This document shows positions 15,364-22,519 of a DNA stretch of 63,434 nucleotides, piece by piece. Made by a program: the position numbers and the translations under genes. The stretch is from Gemmatimonadota bacterium (GTDB lineage: Bacteria; Gemmatimonadota; Gemmatimonadetes; Gemmatimonadales; Gemmatimonadaceae): the NCBI GenBank assembly GCA_016218305.1, contig JACREJ010000040.1, positions 1 to 63,434 on the forward strand, read 5' to 3'. The notes below the pieces were generated by a model, which made no database searches, was not told the DNA's origin, and was given only the letters and a program-made list of their open reading frames with translations. Position 1 is the first letter of the stretch; each line of letters starts with the position of its first letter.

Positions 15364-15807
15364 CTACTTGGCGGGGTTGGAAAGTCGGTAGACGTACGCC
15401 GCCACCGCGCGGTGCTTCTCGGGCGTCAGCGGTGCACCGCCGAACGGCGGCATCACGCCCATGTACTGCTTCGGCTGCATCACGCCCGTCTCGATCTGCT
15501 TGTAGATGGCGCCGTAGCTGCCGTCGCTGTGCAACCAGGTCGAATCGGTGAGGTCGGGCGCCACCGTGCCGCCCTTTCCGTCGGGGCCGTGGCACGCCTG
15601 GCACGACGTCGCGCCGATGAGACCGTGGAACAGGCTGTCGCCGAGGGCGAGCTCCTGCGGGGTGATCGTGGCCGGGTCGAGCGTCGCGGGATCAACGGCC
15701 GCCACCGTGGTGCCGGCGGCCGCCGAGTCGCCGGACTGGTCGGCACCGCCACCGCAGGCGGCGATCACGAGAACGGCGGCGAGGGCAAAGCGAATCGGGT
15801 GACGCAT
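15364..15807 (-). CDS. Cytochrome c lipoprotein of the nos cluster
   Basis: The 147-aa class I c-type cytochrome has a heme-binding CQACH motif (about residues 71-75) and a downstream axial-ligand candidate Met in GVMPPFGG. The N-terminus is a lipoprotein signal (VLVIAAC, Cys near residue 18), followed by a flexible Gly/Ser/Ala linker. It would be anchored in the periplasmic space. It is the last gene of the nosZ-nosLDFY run, 30 bp after nosY. A role passing electrons to NosZ in place of the absent NosR is a plausible inference. Confidence 0.85.
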   Translation of the reverse strand: MRHPIRFALAAVLVIAACGGGADQSGDSAAAGTTVAAVDPATLDPATITPQELALGDSLFHGLIGATSCQACHGPDGKGGTVAPDLTDSTWLHSDGSYGAIYKQIETGVMQPKQYMGVMPPFGGAPLTPEKHRAVAAYVYRLSNPAK

Positions 15808-15837
15808 TGGGACTCCTGAAGGGCTGAGAGAAGACGG

Positions 15838-16626
15838 CTAGAAATCGCGGCGCAGGAAGCGGCGCCCGGCGAGGCCGAGCGGAATCACGCACCAGGTGAC
15901 GAGCGCGGCGGCGGCAATGCCCGTGCCGAGGGCGGTGCCGAACGTCCGCTCGAAGAGCGCCCCGGTGTATCCCATGAGGGCGGAGACGTCGAGTTGTGTC
16001 AGGACCAGCACGCGCGCGACGTCCACCGGATTGGCCAACATGAGCCCGAGCAACGGGCGCTCGAGCGGGTAGTTGCCGAACGCGGCCGCGGCGCCGAGGA
16101 CGAGTCCGTCGTAGATGACGGCGGAGGCCAGCCAGGCCCCAAGCGCGAGCCCGACGCCCTTGAGCCGGTCATCGGTGAACAGCGCGATCCAGGTGGCGAC
16201 GGCGGCGAAGGCGAGCGACAGCCCGACGCCGGCGCCGAGCAGCGCCGCCACGCCGCCCAACGTCGCACCGTCGCGCGCATGCACGATGAACGGGATGCCC
16301 GCACCGACGAGGAACGCGCCGGCGAGCGGCAGGGCCAGCCCCAGATAGAGGCCGGCGAACAGCTCGCGACGCGGCACCGGCTGCGCGAGGAGCAGTTCCA
16401 CGAACTCGCGCGAGGCGTACACATGGATGGTCCCGAAGACCAGCGCCACGAGCGGCAGCACGAGCAGGACGAGATTGAGCAGGCTCAGCAGCACCTGCGG
16501 TCCCGTGCCCCCGAACCAGAAGAGCCCCTCGGCGATGCCGAGGAAGCTGAGCGTGTAGGCCACGATCCAGCGGTTGCGCGACAGGTCGCGCAGCCCGGCC
16601 TGCAGAACGAGCGAGACGACGTTCAT
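15838..16626 (-). CDS. nosY: ABC-2 type permease NosY
   Basis: Inner-membrane partner of NosF and NosD in copper-site maturation of nitrous oxide reductase. The 262 aa are strongly hydrophobic with about six membrane segments, including SLLNLVLLVLPLVALVFGTI and GLYLGLALPLAGAFLVGAGI. A conserved FVELLLAQPVPRRELFAGLY coupling region lies near 90-110. The start at 16626 is supported by an ATGA overlap with the nosF stop. The open frame continues upstream antisense-free but there it only shadows nosF. Confidence 0.88.
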   Translation of the reverse strand: MNVVSLVLQAGLRDLSRNRWIVAYTLSFLGIAEGLFWFGGTGPQVLLSLLNLVLLVLPLVALVFGTIHVYASREFVELLLAQPVPRRELFAGLYLGLALPLAGAFLVGAGIPFIVHARDGATLGGVAALLGAGVGLSLAFAAVATWIALFTDDRLKGVGLALGAWLASAVIYDGLVLGAAAAFGNYPLERPLLGLMLANPVDVARVLVLTQLDVSALMGYTGALFERTFGTALGTGIAAAALVTWCVIPLGLAGRRFLRRDF

Positions 16627-17408
16627 GCGACCCCCGTCGGCTCGGGAGAGAGCCACGGCAAGACCGGCACCGGCTCCGCCGTCCCGACGGCCGCACGGCG
16701 TCCGGCGCGGTCGGAGCGCATGAGCCCGGCAATCGCGTCCTCGAGCGAACGCCCGCCGGTGTGGCTGAGCAGTTCCGCCACCGGCCCCGCGAAGCGGAGA
16801 CGGCCGTCGCACAGGAAGGCGACGTCGTCGGCCAGCGTCTCGAGCTCCGTCATGATGTGCGAGGTGATGAGCACCGAGCGTCCCTCGCGGCGCACGGCGC
16901 GGATCTTTTCCTTGAGCACGTTGGCCGACAGCGGGTCGAGCCCGGCCGTCGGTTCGTCGAGGATCAGGAGCGACGGGCGGAACATGAAGGCGACCACGGC
17001 GTTCACCTTCTGCCGCGTGCCGCCCGACAGCGTCCCGACGAACTTGTCGCGGATGCCGTCCATGTCGTACGCGCGCGCCAGTTCGTCGTCCACGGCCTCG
17101 CCCGGACGCAGCTGCGTCACGAGGTCCAGCACGTCGCCGACGCGCAGGTTCGCGGGGAAGTGCGCCGCCTGCGGCATGTAGCCGATGGCGCGGCGATACG
17201 CGCCCGCATCGTCGGCCGGCTGGCCGTCCACGTGCAGCGTGCCGTGGTCGGCGCGCGTGAGGCCGAGCACGATCTTGATGAGGGTCGTCTTGCCGGATCC
17301 GTTGGGACCGACGAGCGCCGTGACGGCGCCGGTGCGCACGGCGAGCGAGACGTCCTGCAGGACGTCGAGCGCGCCGAAGCGCTTGCGAATGGTGTCGAGC
17401 GTGATCAT
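16623..17408 (-). CDS. nosF: ABC transporter ATP-binding protein NosF
   Basis: Cytoplasmic ATPase that powers the NosFY complex acting on NosD during CuZ assembly. The 261 aa have Walker A GPNGSGKTTLIK (about 34-45), signature LSGGTRQKVN, Walker B LLILDEPTAGLDP and a switch histidine in ITSH. The C-terminal 45 residues form a Pro/Arg-rich tail. The ATG overlaps the nosD stop and the stop overlaps the nosY ATG. Confidence 0.92.
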   Translation of the reverse strand: MITLDTIRKRFGALDVLQDVSLAVRTGAVTALVGPNGSGKTTLIKIVLGLTRADHGTLHVDGQPADDAGAYRRAIGYMPQAAHFPANLRVGDVLDLVTQLRPGEAVDDELARAYDMDGIRDKFVGTLSGGTRQKVNAVVAFMFRPSLLILDEPTAGLDPLSANVLKEKIRAVRREGRSVLITSHIMTELETLADDVAFLCDGRLRFAGPVAELLSHTGGRSLEDAIAGLMRSDRAGRRAAVGTAEPVPVLPWLSPEPTGVA

Positions 17409-18640
17409 CGGGGGGGACGCATGAGGGGACGGCGGTCAACGAGCGCCTCCGGCGTCAGCACCGGCAGCACGCGTTCAGCCGCATCGAGGATGGAGACCAG
17501 CGGACTGCGCAGCAGCAGGAGCGCTGCCGGGTGCTGCTCCACGACGAGCGCAAAGAGGCGCACTGGATGGAAGGCGGTGTCGCCCACGCCGTCGCGGTCG
17601 AGATCGTAGCCGGCATACTCGTCCCACCAGTTGCCGTCAAAGGTGGTGTTCGAGCTGCGGGAGTTGGTGGTGACGTCGAACGCGTTGCCCGAGAACCGGT
17701 TGCCGCTGAAGGAGTTCTCGTCGGCGTCGGCGAGCACCTTGGCCGCCCAGCCGTTCTGCGTGAACTGGTTGCCGCGCACCTGGAGTCGCGACGACCCCTC
17801 GATGAAGATCCCCGTCGAGTTGCGCTCGAAGACGTTGTCCGTGATCTCCCCGCCGTTGATGTCCTTGAGGAGGAGGCCGTAGGCGGCGCTTCCCCATGAG
17901 CGCTCGAAGCGGTTGCGGGCGATCACCACGCCGCGGCTGTACATCACGGCCACGCCGGAGTTGTTGTCGCGGAACGTGTTCTCCAGGTAGGCGCACGAGT
18001 CGCTGAACATGAAGTGGAGGCCGTAGCGCTGGCTGCGCTCGCTCATGTTCCCGCGCGTCAGGCCGTGCGAGGAGAACTCGAAATAGATGCCGTCGCGGTG
18101 GCCGCGCACGCGGTTGTTCTCGACGCGTGCGCCCGGCGAGTACCACAGGTGGATGCCGTTTCCGCTCTCGGTCTGCCGCACCCCCTCCGCTTCGATGTCG
18201 TTGTCGCGGACGGTGCAGTCAGCGGAGCGCTGGAGGTAGATCCCCCAGAGGTTCTTGCGCAGGCGGTTGTGCTCGATGAGGCAGTTGCGCACTTCGCGCG
18301 CGCGGATGCCGGCGCGGTCCTCGAGGTTCGAGATGCCGGTGTTGGTGGCCACGATGCCCCGCACCGTCACGTCATCCGCGGCGATGACCAGCACCTCACG
18401 CACGCCCTGGCCGTCGAGCACGGGCCAGCCCTGCCCTTCCAGCGTGACGCCGGCCGTGCGGATCACCAGGGTCGGCTCGCGGTACGTACCGGCGCGCACC
18501 AGCACGCGGTCGCCGGGGCGCGCCGCCTCGAGCGCGGCGCTGATGGTCGCGAACCGCCCCCCCGCCCCGACCGTGAGGTCAGCGGCGAACGCGGGCTGCG
18601 CGGCGCCCAGCGCAAATGCGGCGACGAGCGCGCGGCGCAC
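17405..18640 (-). CDS. nosD: Periplasmic copper-maturation protein NosD
   Basis: Right-handed beta-helix protein that takes part in building the CuZ centre of NosZ. The 411 aa start with a Sec signal (VRRALVAAFALGAAQPAFA). Parallel beta-helix (CASH-type) repeats follow, with recurrent N-x-G/NxF turns such as RNCLIEHNRLRKNLWGIYLQ and ENTFRDNNSGVAVMYSRG. A WWDEYAGYDLDRDGVGD motif, typical of NosD, lies near the C-terminus. The start is the GTG at 18640, overlapping the nosL stop (TAGTG); no better start precedes the signal. Confidence 0.92.
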   Translation of the reverse strand: MRRALVAAFALGAAQPAFAADLTVGAGGRFATISAALEAARPGDRVLVRAGTYREPTLVIRTAGVTLEGQGWPVLDGQGVREVLVIAADDVTVRGIVATNTGISNLEDRAGIRAREVRNCLIEHNRLRKNLWGIYLQRSADCTVRDNDIEAEGVRQTESGNGIHLWYSPGARVENNRVRGHRDGIYFEFSSHGLTRGNMSERSQRYGLHFMFSDSCAYLENTFRDNNSGVAVMYSRGVVIARNRFERSWGSAAYGLLLKDINGGEITDNVFERNSTGIFIEGSSRLQVRGNQFTQNGWAAKVLADADENSFSGNRFSGNAFDVTTNSRSSNTTFDGNWWDEYAGYDLDRDGVGDTAFHPVRLFALVVEQHPAALLLLRSPLVSILDAAERVLPVLTPEALVDRRPLMRPPR

Positions 18641-19101
18641 TAGTGGTGCCCCATCGCGGTGGTGTCCGCCAGCAGCTCGGCCCACGTGGCCACTCGGCCG
18701 CCGAGCATCGTGCGCTGCTCCTCTGCCTTGGCGGGGCTCGCGAAACCGACCACGGAACCGCCCATCGGCCCCTGCATCGTGCCGCCGGTGAGGAATCCAG
18801 CCGTGGTCACCGGCACGAAGGTGCCCGGATGCTGCAGGTCGATGATGTAGAGCTCGCCGCGCTGGTCGGCCGGCGTGGCGCGCGCCCATGACAGCATGCA
18901 CTCCGGGGCGTCGAACTTGAGGACGCGCCCGGTGGGGAGAATCGCCTCGCCGCCGAAGCGGGAGTCGGAGATGGTCATGCGGCAGTAGCCGCACTGGTCC
19001 TCGTTGAGGACGATGGGCTCCGGTTGGCGCGCACGGCAGGCGCCGAGGAGCACGACGAGGGCGAGCAGGGCGAGGCGAGACGGGGGGACGAATCGGCGCA
19101 T
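18640..19101 (-). CDS. nosL: Copper chaperone lipoprotein NosL
   Basis: Delivers Cu(I) to the NosZ assembly machinery. The 153 aa have a lipobox LLGAC (Cys 21) and the clade II-type metal-binding motif QCGYCRMTI (Cys at about 37 and 40, Met 42). The NosL fold markers FDAPECMLSW and MGGSVVGF follow. The ATG at 19101 precedes the signal directly. The gene lies between the four-helix membrane protein and nosD, overlapping nosD by one base. Confidence 0.92.
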   Translation of the reverse strand: MRRFVPPSRLALLALVVLLGACRARQPEPIVLNEDQCGYCRMTISDSRFGGEAILPTGRVLKFDAPECMLSWARATPADQRGELYIIDLQHPGTFVPVTTAGFLTGGTMQGPMGGSVVGFASPAKAEEQRTMLGGRVATWAELLADTTAMGHH

Positions 19102-19130
19102 GGGAGTCTGGGAGAGCGGGAGAAGTCGGG

Positions 19131-19736
19131 CTAGGCGGGGCGTGCGGCCGTGGCGGCGTGGGCGGTCCCACGGACGCTCTGCCAGACGGCGACGGCCACC
19201 AGTATCGACGCGAGGACGAGCAGCCATCCGCCCGACGCCGGCCAGCTCGTCGCCACGAAGTTGAGCAGCTGCTTGGAGCCAATGAGCGGCGGCTGGTACG
19301 TCATGTCCGGGATCTTGATGATCGCCGTGTCGACGTCGAGGTCGTGCCCGTACTCGTAGCCCCACTTCCAGTAGTCGTAGAGGCCGGCCACGAGCACGGC
19401 GCCGAAGGCCACCGTCCATCCGTAGAGCACGCGGCGGCGGCCGATGAGCGCCACGAGCAGCGCAGTGACGACGAGCGTCCCGAGAATCGCCGGCATGTAC
19501 TTCAGTTCGGGGATCGCATCCGGTTCGATGCGCTTCATCCCGATGTAGTGGTTCAGGTTGTTGATGCTGTTGAGGTCCTGCTCCTTCACGCCCACGACGG
19601 TGTTGACGCGGATCAGCATCCCCAACCCTTCTGGGTATTGCGGGGCGATGAGATCCACTCGCCAGAGCGGCAGCACGAAGCCGGCGCTCATGAGCAGCGC
19701 GGCGACGGCGACGAGAATGCGGGCGGTTTTGGGCAC
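19131..19736 (-). CDS. Four-helix membrane protein of the nos cluster
   Basis: The 201-aa inner-membrane protein has about four hydrophobic segments (near 7-27, 80-100, 107-125 and 165-188). A periplasmic loop (28-78) contains RVNTVVGVKEQDLNSINNLN HYIG. I do not recognise a named family, but membrane proteins of this type sit between nosZ and nosL in clade II nos clusters. The position suggests a role in NosZ maturation or electron supply. The gene follows nosZ by 93 bp and precedes nosL by 29 bp. Confidence 0.75.
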   Translation of the reverse strand: MPKTARILVAVAALLMSAGFVLPLWRVDLIAPQYPEGLGMLIRVNTVVGVKEQDLNSINNLNHYIGMKRIEPDAIPELKYMPAILGTLVVTALLVALIGRRRVLYGWTVAFGAVLVAGLYDYWKWGYEYGHDLDVDTAIIKIPDMTYQPPLIGSKQLLNFVATSWPASGGWLLVLASILVAVAVWQSVRGTAHAATAARPA

Positions 19737-19829: not shown

Positions 19830-21836
19830 CTACTGCTTGGGCGCGCCGGCCGCCTTGGCGGCGGACTGCGGCCCCTTCGAGGTGACGCCGCTCAGCGCAA
19901 CAGCGCTGCCCGGCGCGGAGACGCGCACGTAACCCTGCATCTCCTGGTGGAGCGCCGAGCAGAAGTCGGTGCAGTACATCGGATAGACGCCGGGCTTGCG
20001 CGGGATCCACTTCAGCGTCCGGGTCTCGCCCGGCATGATGAGCAGTTCGCCGTTCTGGGCGCCCATGATCGCGAAGCCGTGCGGCACGTCCCAGTCCTGC
20101 TCGAGGTTGGTGACGTGGAAGAGCACGGTGTCACCCACCTGCACGCCCTCGATGTTGTCCGGCGAGAAGTGCGAGCGGACGGCCGTCATGCGCACGTGCA
20201 CGATGCGTCCGTTGCGGCTGAGCCCGGTCTCCTTCTCCGAGCGCGTGATGTGCGGCGCCTTGCTCTCGGCCAGCTTGAAGAATTTCACCTGCTTGTCCTT
20301 GATCTTCTTTGCCTCGATCGCCTGGGCGTAGTGCGGCTCGCCCTCGGTGGGGAAGTCGAGCAGGAGCTTCATCTTGTCGCCCGAGATGTCGTAGAGCTGC
20401 GCGCTCTGCGTGAGCTCGGGGCCGGTGGGGAGGTAGCGGTCCTTGGTGATCTTGTTCATCGACACCAGGTACTTGGCATTCGGCTTCATCGTGCCGCCGC
20501 CCGGGATCATCAGGTGGCCCACCGAGTAGTAGGTCGGCACGCGATCCACGACTTCCCAGGTCCCCAGCTTCCACTTCACGACTTCGGACGAGATGAAGAA
20601 CGAGGTGTAGGCGTAGCCCTTGCCGTCGAACTCGGTGTGCAGGGGGCCGAGGCCCGGGTTCTTGACCTCGCCGGCGAGCGTCGCCTCGTACTTCAGCACC
20701 GGGATGCCCTCGATGTCGCCCTCAAACGCCTTGGCTTCGATGGCCTTGAGCATCTTCGGGAACGAATGCACCGGGATCACGGAGGCCAGCTTGCCGCCCG
20801 CCACGATGAACTCACCCGTCGGATCGACGTCGGCGCCATGCGGCGACTTGGGCGTCGGCAGGAAGTAGACGGCGCCCGGGCACTGCTTGGCCTCGAACTG
20901 CGGCACCGACGTGAGGGTCGTGCTCTTGGCCTCGCGCGTGAACTCGTCGGTGAAATTGTGCAGGTACGACGCGGCGACGTTCTTGAGGACGCCCTTCTGG
21001 GCGCACGCCTCGATGGCCTTCCAGTTCACGGCGGCCACGAAGTCCTTGTCGTTCTGCGAGGCGTTGACCTCGAGCAGCGAGTTGGCCTGCTCCGTGTTGT
21101 ACATGGAGAGGAACATCCAGCCGTTGCTCTGCCCCTTGCCGGCGCGCGCCAGGTCGTAGTTGAAGGCGGGCATCAGCATCTGGAACGCGACGCGCATCTT
21201 GCCCGGCTCGTCGGCGCGGATGAAGGAGATCTGCCCCTTGAAGCGCTTCTTGAACTCCGTGATCGGCACGTCGGTGTTGGGCACCGGCACCGAGAAGCGG
21301 GTGGAGGCCACCACGTACTCGCTGTTCTGCGTCACGAACGGCGACCCGTGATTGCCGCCGGCGTTCGGGATCTCGAGGATCTCCTCGGTCTCGAACCGGG
21401 TCAGGTCGATGCGTGCGATGCGCGGCGTGTTGTTGGCGTTAATGAAGAGCCAGCGGCCGTCGTCCTCGCCGTTCGTCTGCGACAACGCCGGATGGTGCGT
21501 GTCGTCCCACGGGATGAAGCCGTAGCTGGTGTTCAGCATCGCCTTCGTCTCTTCGCTGTACCCGTAGCCGTTCTCCGGGTACTGCGAGAAGACCGGGATG
21601 GTCTTCAGGCGGCGGCCGGACGGGAGTCCGTAGACGCCGATCTGTCCGTTGAAGCCGCCGGACATGAATGCGTAGAACTCGTCGTACTGCCCGGGAGCGA
21701 CGTACACCGCCTTGGCGGCGTCGGCGCTCAGGAGTCCGCTGCTCGCCGGGCGCTTGGCGCAGGCGAAGGCCAGCAGGGCCGCCGACGCGAGCATGCCAGC
21801 GCCGGCGAGGGTCCGAAACTTGGGGAAGGTGGCCAT
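19830..21836 (-). CDS. nosZ: Nitrous oxide reductase NosZ, clade II (Sec-type)
   Basis: Periplasmic multicopper enzyme reducing N2O to N2. The 668 aa show a Sec-type, possibly lipoprotein, leader (LLAFAC near residue 26) without the twin-arginine motif of clade I enzymes. The N-terminal propeller carries CuZ-ligand histidines in DDTHHPALS, GGNHGSP, SPHGADVDP, GPLHTEF and GEPHYAQ. The C-terminal cupredoxin domain has the complete CuA motif CTDFCSALHQEM. The ATG at 21836 has a GAGG upstream; a TTG at 21848 is an in-frame alternative. It is the first gene of the cluster, downstream of two palindromic operator candidates. Confidence 0.97.
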   Translation of the reverse strand: MATFPKFRTLAGAGMLASAALLAFACAKRPASSGLLSADAAKAVYVAPGQYDEFYAFMSGGFNGQIGVYGLPSGRRLKTIPVFSQYPENGYGYSEETKAMLNTSYGFIPWDDTHHPALSQTNGEDDGRWLFINANNTPRIARIDLTRFETEEILEIPNAGGNHGSPFVTQNSEYVVASTRFSVPVPNTDVPITEFKKRFKGQISFIRADEPGKMRVAFQMLMPAFNYDLARAGKGQSNGWMFLSMYNTEQANSLLEVNASQNDKDFVAAVNWKAIEACAQKGVLKNVAASYLHNFTDEFTREAKSTTLTSVPQFEAKQCPGAVYFLPTPKSPHGADVDPTGEFIVAGGKLASVIPVHSFPKMLKAIEAKAFEGDIEGIPVLKYEATLAGEVKNPGLGPLHTEFDGKGYAYTSFFISSEVVKWKLGTWEVVDRVPTYYSVGHLMIPGGGTMKPNAKYLVSMNKITKDRYLPTGPELTQSAQLYDISGDKMKLLLDFPTEGEPHYAQAIEAKKIKDKQVKFFKLAESKAPHITRSEKETGLSRNGRIVHVRMTAVRSHFSPDNIEGVQVGDTVLFHVTNLEQDWDVPHGFAIMGAQNGELLIMPGETRTLKWIPRKPGVYPMYCTDFCSALHQEMQGYVRVSAPGSAVALSGVTSKGPQSAAKAAGAPKQ

Positions 21837-21903
21837 GAGGTGCCTCAAGGAGCGTGGTGTGGGGAGACGAAGCGCGCCGATCGTGGTGCGAGGGGCCCGT
21901 TCA

Positions 21904-21926
21904 ATGTGGTACTCTACTTACCGCTT
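21904..21926. promoter_or_regulatory. NsrR-like operator candidate 1
   Basis: A 23-bp imperfect palindrome with half-sites ATGTGGTA and TACCGCTT around 7 bp. For nosZ transcription it would lie just after the predicted start point. It has the same 8-7-8 layout as candidate 2, 28 bp away. Confidence 0.5.
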
Positions 21927-21931
21927 TGACA

Positions 21932-21954
21932 AAGTGGTATGTTAGATGCCACTT
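21932..21954. promoter_or_regulatory. NsrR-like operator candidate 2
   Basis: A 23-bp palindrome with half-sites AAGTGGTA and TGCCACTT around 7 bp. Its outer six bases pair perfectly and it is symmetric in most inner positions. The length and the AAG...CTT ends match the layout of known NsrR sites (two 11-bp arms around 1 bp). It overlaps the spacer and -10 of the predicted nosZ promoter, as expected for a repressor. Confidence 0.6.
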
Positions 21955-21968
21955 GAATAGTCAGGCAA
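21939..21968 (-). promoter_or_regulatory. Predicted nosZ promoter
   Basis: On the minus strand, TTGCCT (21963-21968) and TAACAT (21939-21944) are separated by 18 bp. Operator candidate 2 covers the spacer and -10. The leader to the nosZ ATG would be about 95 nt. The region is clearly more AT-rich than its surroundings. A perfect TTGACA on the plus strand at 21926-21931 has no well-spaced -10. Confidence 0.5.
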
Positions 21969-22087
21969 GGTCCTGAAATCGTGTGAGGATTCGCCTTGTG
22001 CCTTGTCCGGAAGAACTCCGATCCATGGGCGTCCGCCATTCCGGTATCCTTCGCGCGTCTTTCCGATTCGCCCTGAGGCCGCACCGT

Positions 22088-22519
22088 ATGCACCTGACCC
22101 GGTTTACCGACAACGCCCTGCGCTGCCTGACGTACCTGGCACTCCATCCGGGGAAGACGGAGACGGTGGGCACCATCGCACGCCGCATGGCGCTCTCCGA
22201 GGACCACCTCGTGAAGGTGGTCCAGCGCCTCGCCCACCTCGGCTACGTGGAGACCATGCGCGGCCGCGGCGGCGGCGTGCGCCTCATCGTTGAGCCCGCC
22301 CTGATCAACGTCGGTGCCGTGGTTCGGCAGACGGAGGAGAACTTCCGGCTGGTCGAGTGCTTCGACGAGGCGGCCAACTCGTGTCCGATTGCCCCGGCCT
22401 GCGGCCTGGCGCCGGCGCTCGACCTGGCGCTCAAGGCCTTCCTGGAGGTGCTGGACCGCTACACGCTCGAGGACTTCACCAAGTCCCCGAAGAAGCTGCA
22501 CAAGCTCCTTATCGCGTGA
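22088..22519 (+). CDS. nsrR: Rrf2-family regulator, NsrR-like nitric oxide sensor
   Basis: Winged-helix transcription factor predicted to bind an NO-sensitive Fe-S cluster. The 143 aa begin MHLTRFTDNALRCLTYLAL, the usual Rrf2 start. The recognition wing GYVETMRGRGGGVRL lies near 55-70. Three cysteines, spaced C-x7-C-x5-C in the segment ECFDEAANSC to APACGL (about 99-113), match the NsrR cluster pattern. The C-terminus YTLEDFTKSPKKLHKLL is also NsrR-like. The frame extends upstream, but the ATG at 22088 is where homology starts. It is divergent from nosZ. Confidence 0.87.
   Translation: MHLTRFTDNALRCLTYLALHPGKTETVGTIARRMALSEDHLVKVVQRLAHLGYVETMRGRGGGVRLIVEPALINVGAVVRQTEENFRLVECFDEAANSCPIAPACGLAPALDLALKAFLEVLDRYTLEDFTKSPKKLHKLLIA

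Follow-up and report, generated by a model that had tools for sequence, protein, structure and literature searches.

Direct control of nosZ by NsrR is already known elsewhere: in Magnetospirillum gryphiswaldense, gel shifts reported in PMC11014258 place NsrR on the nosZ promoter region. The same report describes higher nosZ in an nsrR mutant and weakened NsrR binding in the presence of an NO donor, together with an approximately 100-fold rise of nosZ upon addition of an NO donor that occurs also without NsrR. The enterobacterial NsrR box is given in PMC1274295 as gATGyAT-N5-ATrCATc, and an NsrR site at E. coli dnrN (ytfE) is described there as well. According to PMC10510648, residue 8 distinguishes the related regulators, being Asp in NsrR and Asn in RirA. 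PMC10581226 counts the nosZ genes of Gemmatimonadota among the most abundant ones in soils, and a search of titles and abstracts retrieved no work on NsrR control of Gemmatimonadota nosZ; the terms co-occur in PMC6264515 and PMC13386854.

The window analysed here is the whole 63,434-nt stretch of contig JACREJ010000040.1 (GCA_016218305.1; assembly size 2.0 Mb), in which the gap between nosZ and a divergent Rrf2-family gene carries two 23-bp palindromes. The features of the locus are:

15364–19736, minus strand: remainder of the nos cluster, following nosZ, from Pfam and NCBIfam matches.
19830–21836, minus strand: nosZ, clade II (Sec-dependent) nitrous-oxide reductase (TIGR04246, 931.5 bits, above the cut-off of 625).
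21904–21926, unstranded: left-hand palindrome ATGTGGTACTCTACTTACCGCTT, predicted secondary operator (second-best matrix place; present in 5 of 11 genus members).
21932–21954, unstranded: right-hand palindrome AAGTGGTATGTTAGATGCCACTT, predicted main NsrR-like operator (half-site matrix and genus conservation).
21961–22024, unstranded: second palindrome array, with TCAGG-N6-CCTGA at 21961–21976 (exact match) and weaker copies at about 21982–21998 and 22004–22024 (by eye).
22040–22052, plus strand: TCCGGTATCCTTC block, a possible nsrR promoter -10 with 13 invariant columns in 11 of 11 genus members.
22088–22519, plus strand: nsrR-like gene encoding the Rrf2-family regulator P0002 (PF02082; closest structure 5n07), with C91, C99, C105 and D8.

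The cluster behind nosZ encodes NosL, NosD, an ABC ATPase, an ABC-2 permease and a cytochrome c, and its first protein (19134–19736) has no Pfam or NCBIfam match. It is quite probable that the two palindromes are operators of the divergent Rrf2 regulator, a putative [4Fe-4S] NsrR, which would repress the nosZ cluster until NO destroys the Fe-S cluster.

The right-hand site is built from the arms AAGTGGTA-N7-TGCCACTT, in which seven of eight arm pairs are complementary, while direct reading of the left-hand site gives six of eight. A reading made earlier from the sequence only had proposed two sites of a shared 8-7-8 layout, the right one nearly fully symmetric; both points are confirmed, with centres at 21915 and 21943, 28 bp apart. 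Exact matches to GTGGTA-N7-TRCCRC number two in the window and two in the entire assembly, all of them these same two sites. When up to two mismatches are allowed, the window contains 21 matches against 11.6 expected, a count reached in 2 of 100 shuffles, and with up to one mismatch the assembly contains 39 matches against 233 for the reversed pattern. Loose core matches are unremarkable, and a palindrome with seven of eight pairs within 251 bp is not rare; because loose matches are common, weight attaches only to occurrences that are exact, paired and conserved. What lies beyond chance is that the half-site repeats at a distance of 28 bp, and that it is conserved. Specifically, a half-site matrix from ScdA_N promoters of other genomes, trained on nine sites of which eight were located through a nosZ-derived pattern, scores the right-hand site at 30.5 of a possible 32.8 and the left-hand site at 14.9, with the third place in the window at 3.3.

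P0002 carries an Rrf2 domain (PF02082, 112.6 bits, above the cut-off of 30), and its closest solved relative is S. coelicolor NsrR (5n07, E 7e-20). It possesses the three NsrR cluster cysteines as well as Asp8, the residue set expected of an NsrR, and among the aligned orthologues D8 is present in 37 of 37 (one truncated) and C91 in all 36 that extend to it. Against the NCBIfam NsrR equivalog it scores 112.8 bits, below the cut-off of 182, and it is therefore designated here as putatively NsrR-like, not as a member by that model. Its score against the RirA equivalog is higher, at 131.4 bits, and also lies below the respective cut-off (193). This top NCBIfam score favours a RirA-like protein that would bind the palindromes in response to iron or Fe-S status instead of NO; in addition, no second Rrf2 gene was found in the assembly (91.7% complete), so that P0002 could have taken over other Fe-S duties. 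However, P0002 has at position 8 the Asp of NsrR and lacks the Asn given for RirA in PMC10510648, the recurrent targets described below comprise a RIC-like gene and no iron-uptake genes, and the box of a related genus (g2) resembles the NsrR box, so that an iron or Fe-S signal appears unlikely.

Within the genus, the NsrR-type reading of the sites was examined in 11 genomes with a pattern derived from the right-hand sites (up to three mismatches, strands merged). The scan yields 26 places, comprising 11 between nosZ and nsrR, 8 before ScdA_N, the left-hand nosZ site of G174 and 6 non-recurrent matches; the reversed control yields one match. The nosZ/nsrR places occur once per genome in 11 of 11, the place in G301 being the left-hand site; this is the conservation in relatives that the earlier reading had asked for. 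According to the half-site matrix, the right-hand site is retained as the best-scoring place in 10 of 11 members, and in these ten its end lies 131–135 bp from the nsrR start. The left-hand site is secondary and replaceable: where present, it lies 27–28 bp from the right-hand site in four genomes and is the sole remaining copy in G301.

The second recurrent position of the box is directly upstream of a RIC-like ScdA_N gene, a known kind of NsrR target, in eight of the nine genus genomes that have this gene, which places the motif at a probable NO-stress target; the ninth, G376, shows a weaker site by eye. The earlier reading had asked for a motif beside nos or NO genes only; the recurrent positions are these two, and the six other matches do not recur. 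In G065, the ScdA_N product matches PF04405 above the cut-off, with partial RIC/YtfE matches below theirs, and two genes for small membrane proteins of COX1-like type come after it; the whole constitutes a probable NO-stress operon. At L149:2026-3233 and its genus counterparts, the unit consists of a ScdA_N gene that lacks a hemerythrin domain and the two COX1-like proteins behind it, and it has an NsrR-like box. No ScdA_N gene was found in G395 or in the window's own assembly (G000). The latter measures 2.0 Mb at a stated completeness of 91.7%, against 2.5–3.8 Mb in the listed genus relatives, and the missing gene may be an assembly loss.

Chance, or a promoter shape that does not act as an operator, could account for the palindromes, given that seven-of-eight palindromes are not rare in 251 bp and that loose core matches are common; yet the conservation throughout the genus, the second target and the shuffle test, in which the score lies beyond all 200 shuffles for each of the 10 genus members tested, leave this explanation a negligible probability.

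Across the phylum, nosZ is found in 132 of 395 genomes, and 110 nosZ regions from 110 of these 132 were compared, nine being dropped for want of an alignable nosZ start. At 37 loci nosZ has a similar Rrf2 gene (>45% identity) as divergent neighbour, with its start no more than 400 bp away, the weak or distant Rrf2 neighbours L079, L094 and L113 being left out of the counts. Each gap was scored with two half-site matrices (ScdA_N sites; g2) against 200 shuffles, the window's genus (g1) being represented by 10 members, with G395 scored in the matrix scan only. At 26 of the 37 loci the box exceeds all 200 shuffles. These comprise g1 (10/10), g2 (7/7, its loci being the training set of the second matrix), g9 and g16 (5/5), and g26, g21 and g10 (4/4). 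The remaining 11 have a regulator beside nosZ and no significant box. In g4 (7/7) the same place is occupied by a diverged box, for example ATCTCGGAT-N5-ATACCAGAT, with a score that 5 to 122 of 200 shuffles reach, and a diverged box, ATCTCGGATTTCACATACCAGAT, lies between nosZ and nsrR in G019. In g12, g17 and g19 (4/4 loci) no box is seen despite the presence of the regulator. The g12 gap at L059 and L068 contains the palindromes ATCCTCTATTCTTAGTAGAGGAT and ATCCTCTATTTTTCGTAGAGGTT in place of the missing NsrR box, perhaps a further operator form.

Among family members without such a gene beside nosZ, a significant box occurs in 0 of 21, the lowest case being reached by 13 of 200 shuffles; a P0002 relative is absent genome-wide for 5 of these 21 and from the retrieved flank for the other 16. 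L030 and L037 were removed from this group, as a relative is encoded elsewhere in each of the two genomes. A single half-site, ATACCACTT, is present at L037. The box is tied to the neighbouring nsrR gene. This tie, 26 of 37 loci with the gene versus 0 of 21 without, speaks against another transcription factor reading the palindromes with nsrR adjacent by coincidence, as does the resemblance of boxes across the family to NsrR boxes. Moreover, the FNR/DNR box TTGAT-N4-ATCAA, at up to two mismatches, has 11 matches in the window and none between nosZ and nsrR. Although the second conserved array, described below, indicates that at least one more factor probably acts here, a different reader of the palindromes themselves is improbable.

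The sequence that P0002 is predicted to recognize differs from the known boxes in a lineage-specific manner, as had been suggested from its GTGGTA core. The canonical NsrR box gATGyAT-N5-ATrCATc, at up to three mismatches, has two matches in the window, neither near nosZ, and none between nosZ and nsrR, and at the corresponding position other genera of the family carry related boxes of different sequence. The g2 box there is AAGRTGCAT-N5-TTGCAYCTT, which resembles the box of enterobacterial NsrR, with AAGATGCATATTACTTGCATCTT nearly canonical, and the site stops some 60 bp short of the nsrR start. The pattern AAGRTGCATNNTACTTGCAYCTT, with up to three mismatches allowed, is matched in 11 of 17 g2 genomes (one place in ten, two in one). 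Half-sites range from the near-canonical AAGATGCAT in g2 to AAGTGGTAT in the window's genus, with mixed sites in g9 and g16, for example AAGTTGCAT with AAGTGGAAT. GG at half-site positions 5 and 6 is found in both arms in g1 and g26 and in one arm of the site in g10 and g21. A different palindrome, TCAAGGTATWTTCCTTGA, lies close to the ScdA_N start in two g2 genomes (G182 and G128; L198 and L199).

A recognition-helix code was considered in which residue 46 sets half-site position 5 (Gln specifying G; Ala or Gly specifying T), with counts from 38 sites chosen by eye. Position 5 is G in 31, C in 7, A in 4 and T in 2 of the 44 arms of the Gln/His class, and T in 28 and G in 4 of the 32 arms of the Ala/Gly class. 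On the tree, the Ala/Gly proteins lie in a single 12-member group that is modestly supported (83/93), so that the box change accompanying residue 46 sits on one branch and counts as one event. The one-residue code is contradicted by the Halomonas dongshanensis NsrR (L247), which combines Gln with the canonical box AAGATGCATATTTTATACATCTT; in the helix survey, the canonical box occurs in 5 of 69 cases, and Gln in 13 of 14 examples inspected. Residue 46 was therefore rejected as a sufficient determinant.

The nosZ promoter assignment is weak. A good promoter had been claimed beneath the second site, but a sigma-70 consensus scan of 21830–22100 found no promoter, and the claim falls back on partly conserved elements: by direct alignment reading, 6 of 11 genus members have TAnnAT on the nosZ strand within the right-hand site, and in 9 of 11 that site is followed by AGTCAGG, which reads CCTGACT on the nosZ strand. 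On the opposite side, nsrR transcription may start from the TCCGGTATCCTTC block. The region is common to both genes, and sites that serve mainly nsrR autoregulation and leave nosZ uncontrolled would suit the g2 arrangement, with its short distance to nsrR. In the window's genus, however, the site stands 131–135 bp before nsrR, beyond the invariant TCCGGTATCCTTC block, a possible nsrR promoter, and the box recurs before ScdA_N, far from nsrR, which makes autoregulation as the main role very improbable.

Control of nosZ itself by NsrR thus remains the preferred reading, and the observed sites, their conservation, the two recurrent targets, the tie to nsrR and the ligand residues outline how it might operate. 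The holo-NsrR dimer would bind the right-hand 23-bp site, overlapping the presumed nosZ -10 region, and would engage the left-hand site more weakly, just past the presumed start point. Since the right-hand site covers the presumed -10 elements and the left-hand site would lie just downstream of the start, NsrR carrying its putative cluster would block transcription of the nosZ-led cluster. NO would destroy the Fe-S cluster, the protein would leave the DNA, and nosZ would be expressed; in most genus genomes the same protein would also control the RIC-like (ScdA_N) operon. The proposal of the sequence-only reading that NO sensing directly controls N2O reductase is supported by the genus conservation and the two recurrent targets, and the palindrome pair most likely represents NsrR-type operators with a lineage-specific sequence that couple N2O reduction to NO.

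The second array points to a further regulator besides NsrR. The pattern TCNGG-N5/6-CCNGA occurs 13 times upstream of family nosZ genes with nsrR against 0.67 expected (37 sequences), and 9 times upstream of those without nsrR against 0.35 expected (22 sequences), in counts where the pattern derives from part of the sequences counted and related sequences are not independent. It is not enriched in other families (1 against 0.76 expected; 38 sequences) or 600–850 bp upstream (1 against 1.76; 97 sequences), and the plain pattern is not rare in the window, with 4 matches against 2.15 expected. A matching half, TTCCCYGACA or near, precedes the box by a few bases in most genus ScdA_N promoters, and in g5, which lacks nsrR, the array is common to divergent nosZ and ScdA_N. 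A regulon search with GGNANNTCCCYGACA in 20 genomes yielded 18 matches versus 22 for the reversed control.

No nirK match exceeds the cut-off (296) in any of the 11 genus genomes, with matches of 165–170 bits below it in G222, G065 and G174; PMC10581226 reports nirK from Gemmatimonadota MAGs of all environments. A tentative proposal, somewhat doubtful as a whole, is a two-input gating of clade II nosZ in Gemmatimonadaceae without nirK over the cut-off, in which a family-rewritten NsrR would switch on N2O respiration in response to NO largely from neighbours, and a second regulator would read tandem TGTCAGG-N5/6-CCTGACA-like sites common to nosZ and the RIC-like operon.

With operator and regulator defined, the nosZ switch becomes testable, and changes in recognition can be studied on the series of related NsrR proteins, with their operators, that the family provides. 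Compared with enterobacterial NsrR (PMC1274295), the locus shares an Rrf2 regulator, an inverted repeat of similar length and RIC targets (ytfE/dnrN), whereas the core here is GTGGTA and the target is nosZ. Rhizobial RirA is likewise an Rrf2 protein and gives the top NCBIfam score for P0002, but PMC10510648 describes for it Asn8, an iron regulon and the IRO box. The S. coelicolor NsrR (5n07, 7b0c) is the closest solved relative and shares the three cysteines, Asp8 and a 23-bp site, while its targets are given in PMC9338935 as hmpA1, hmpA2 and nsrR. In M. gryphiswaldense, which belongs to another phylum and presents another genomic context, the sites described in PMC11014258 are little palindromic and are given without a footprint. 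Relative to these systems, the novelty lies in the recognition sequence, in how it varies across one family and in the setting beside clade II nosZ.
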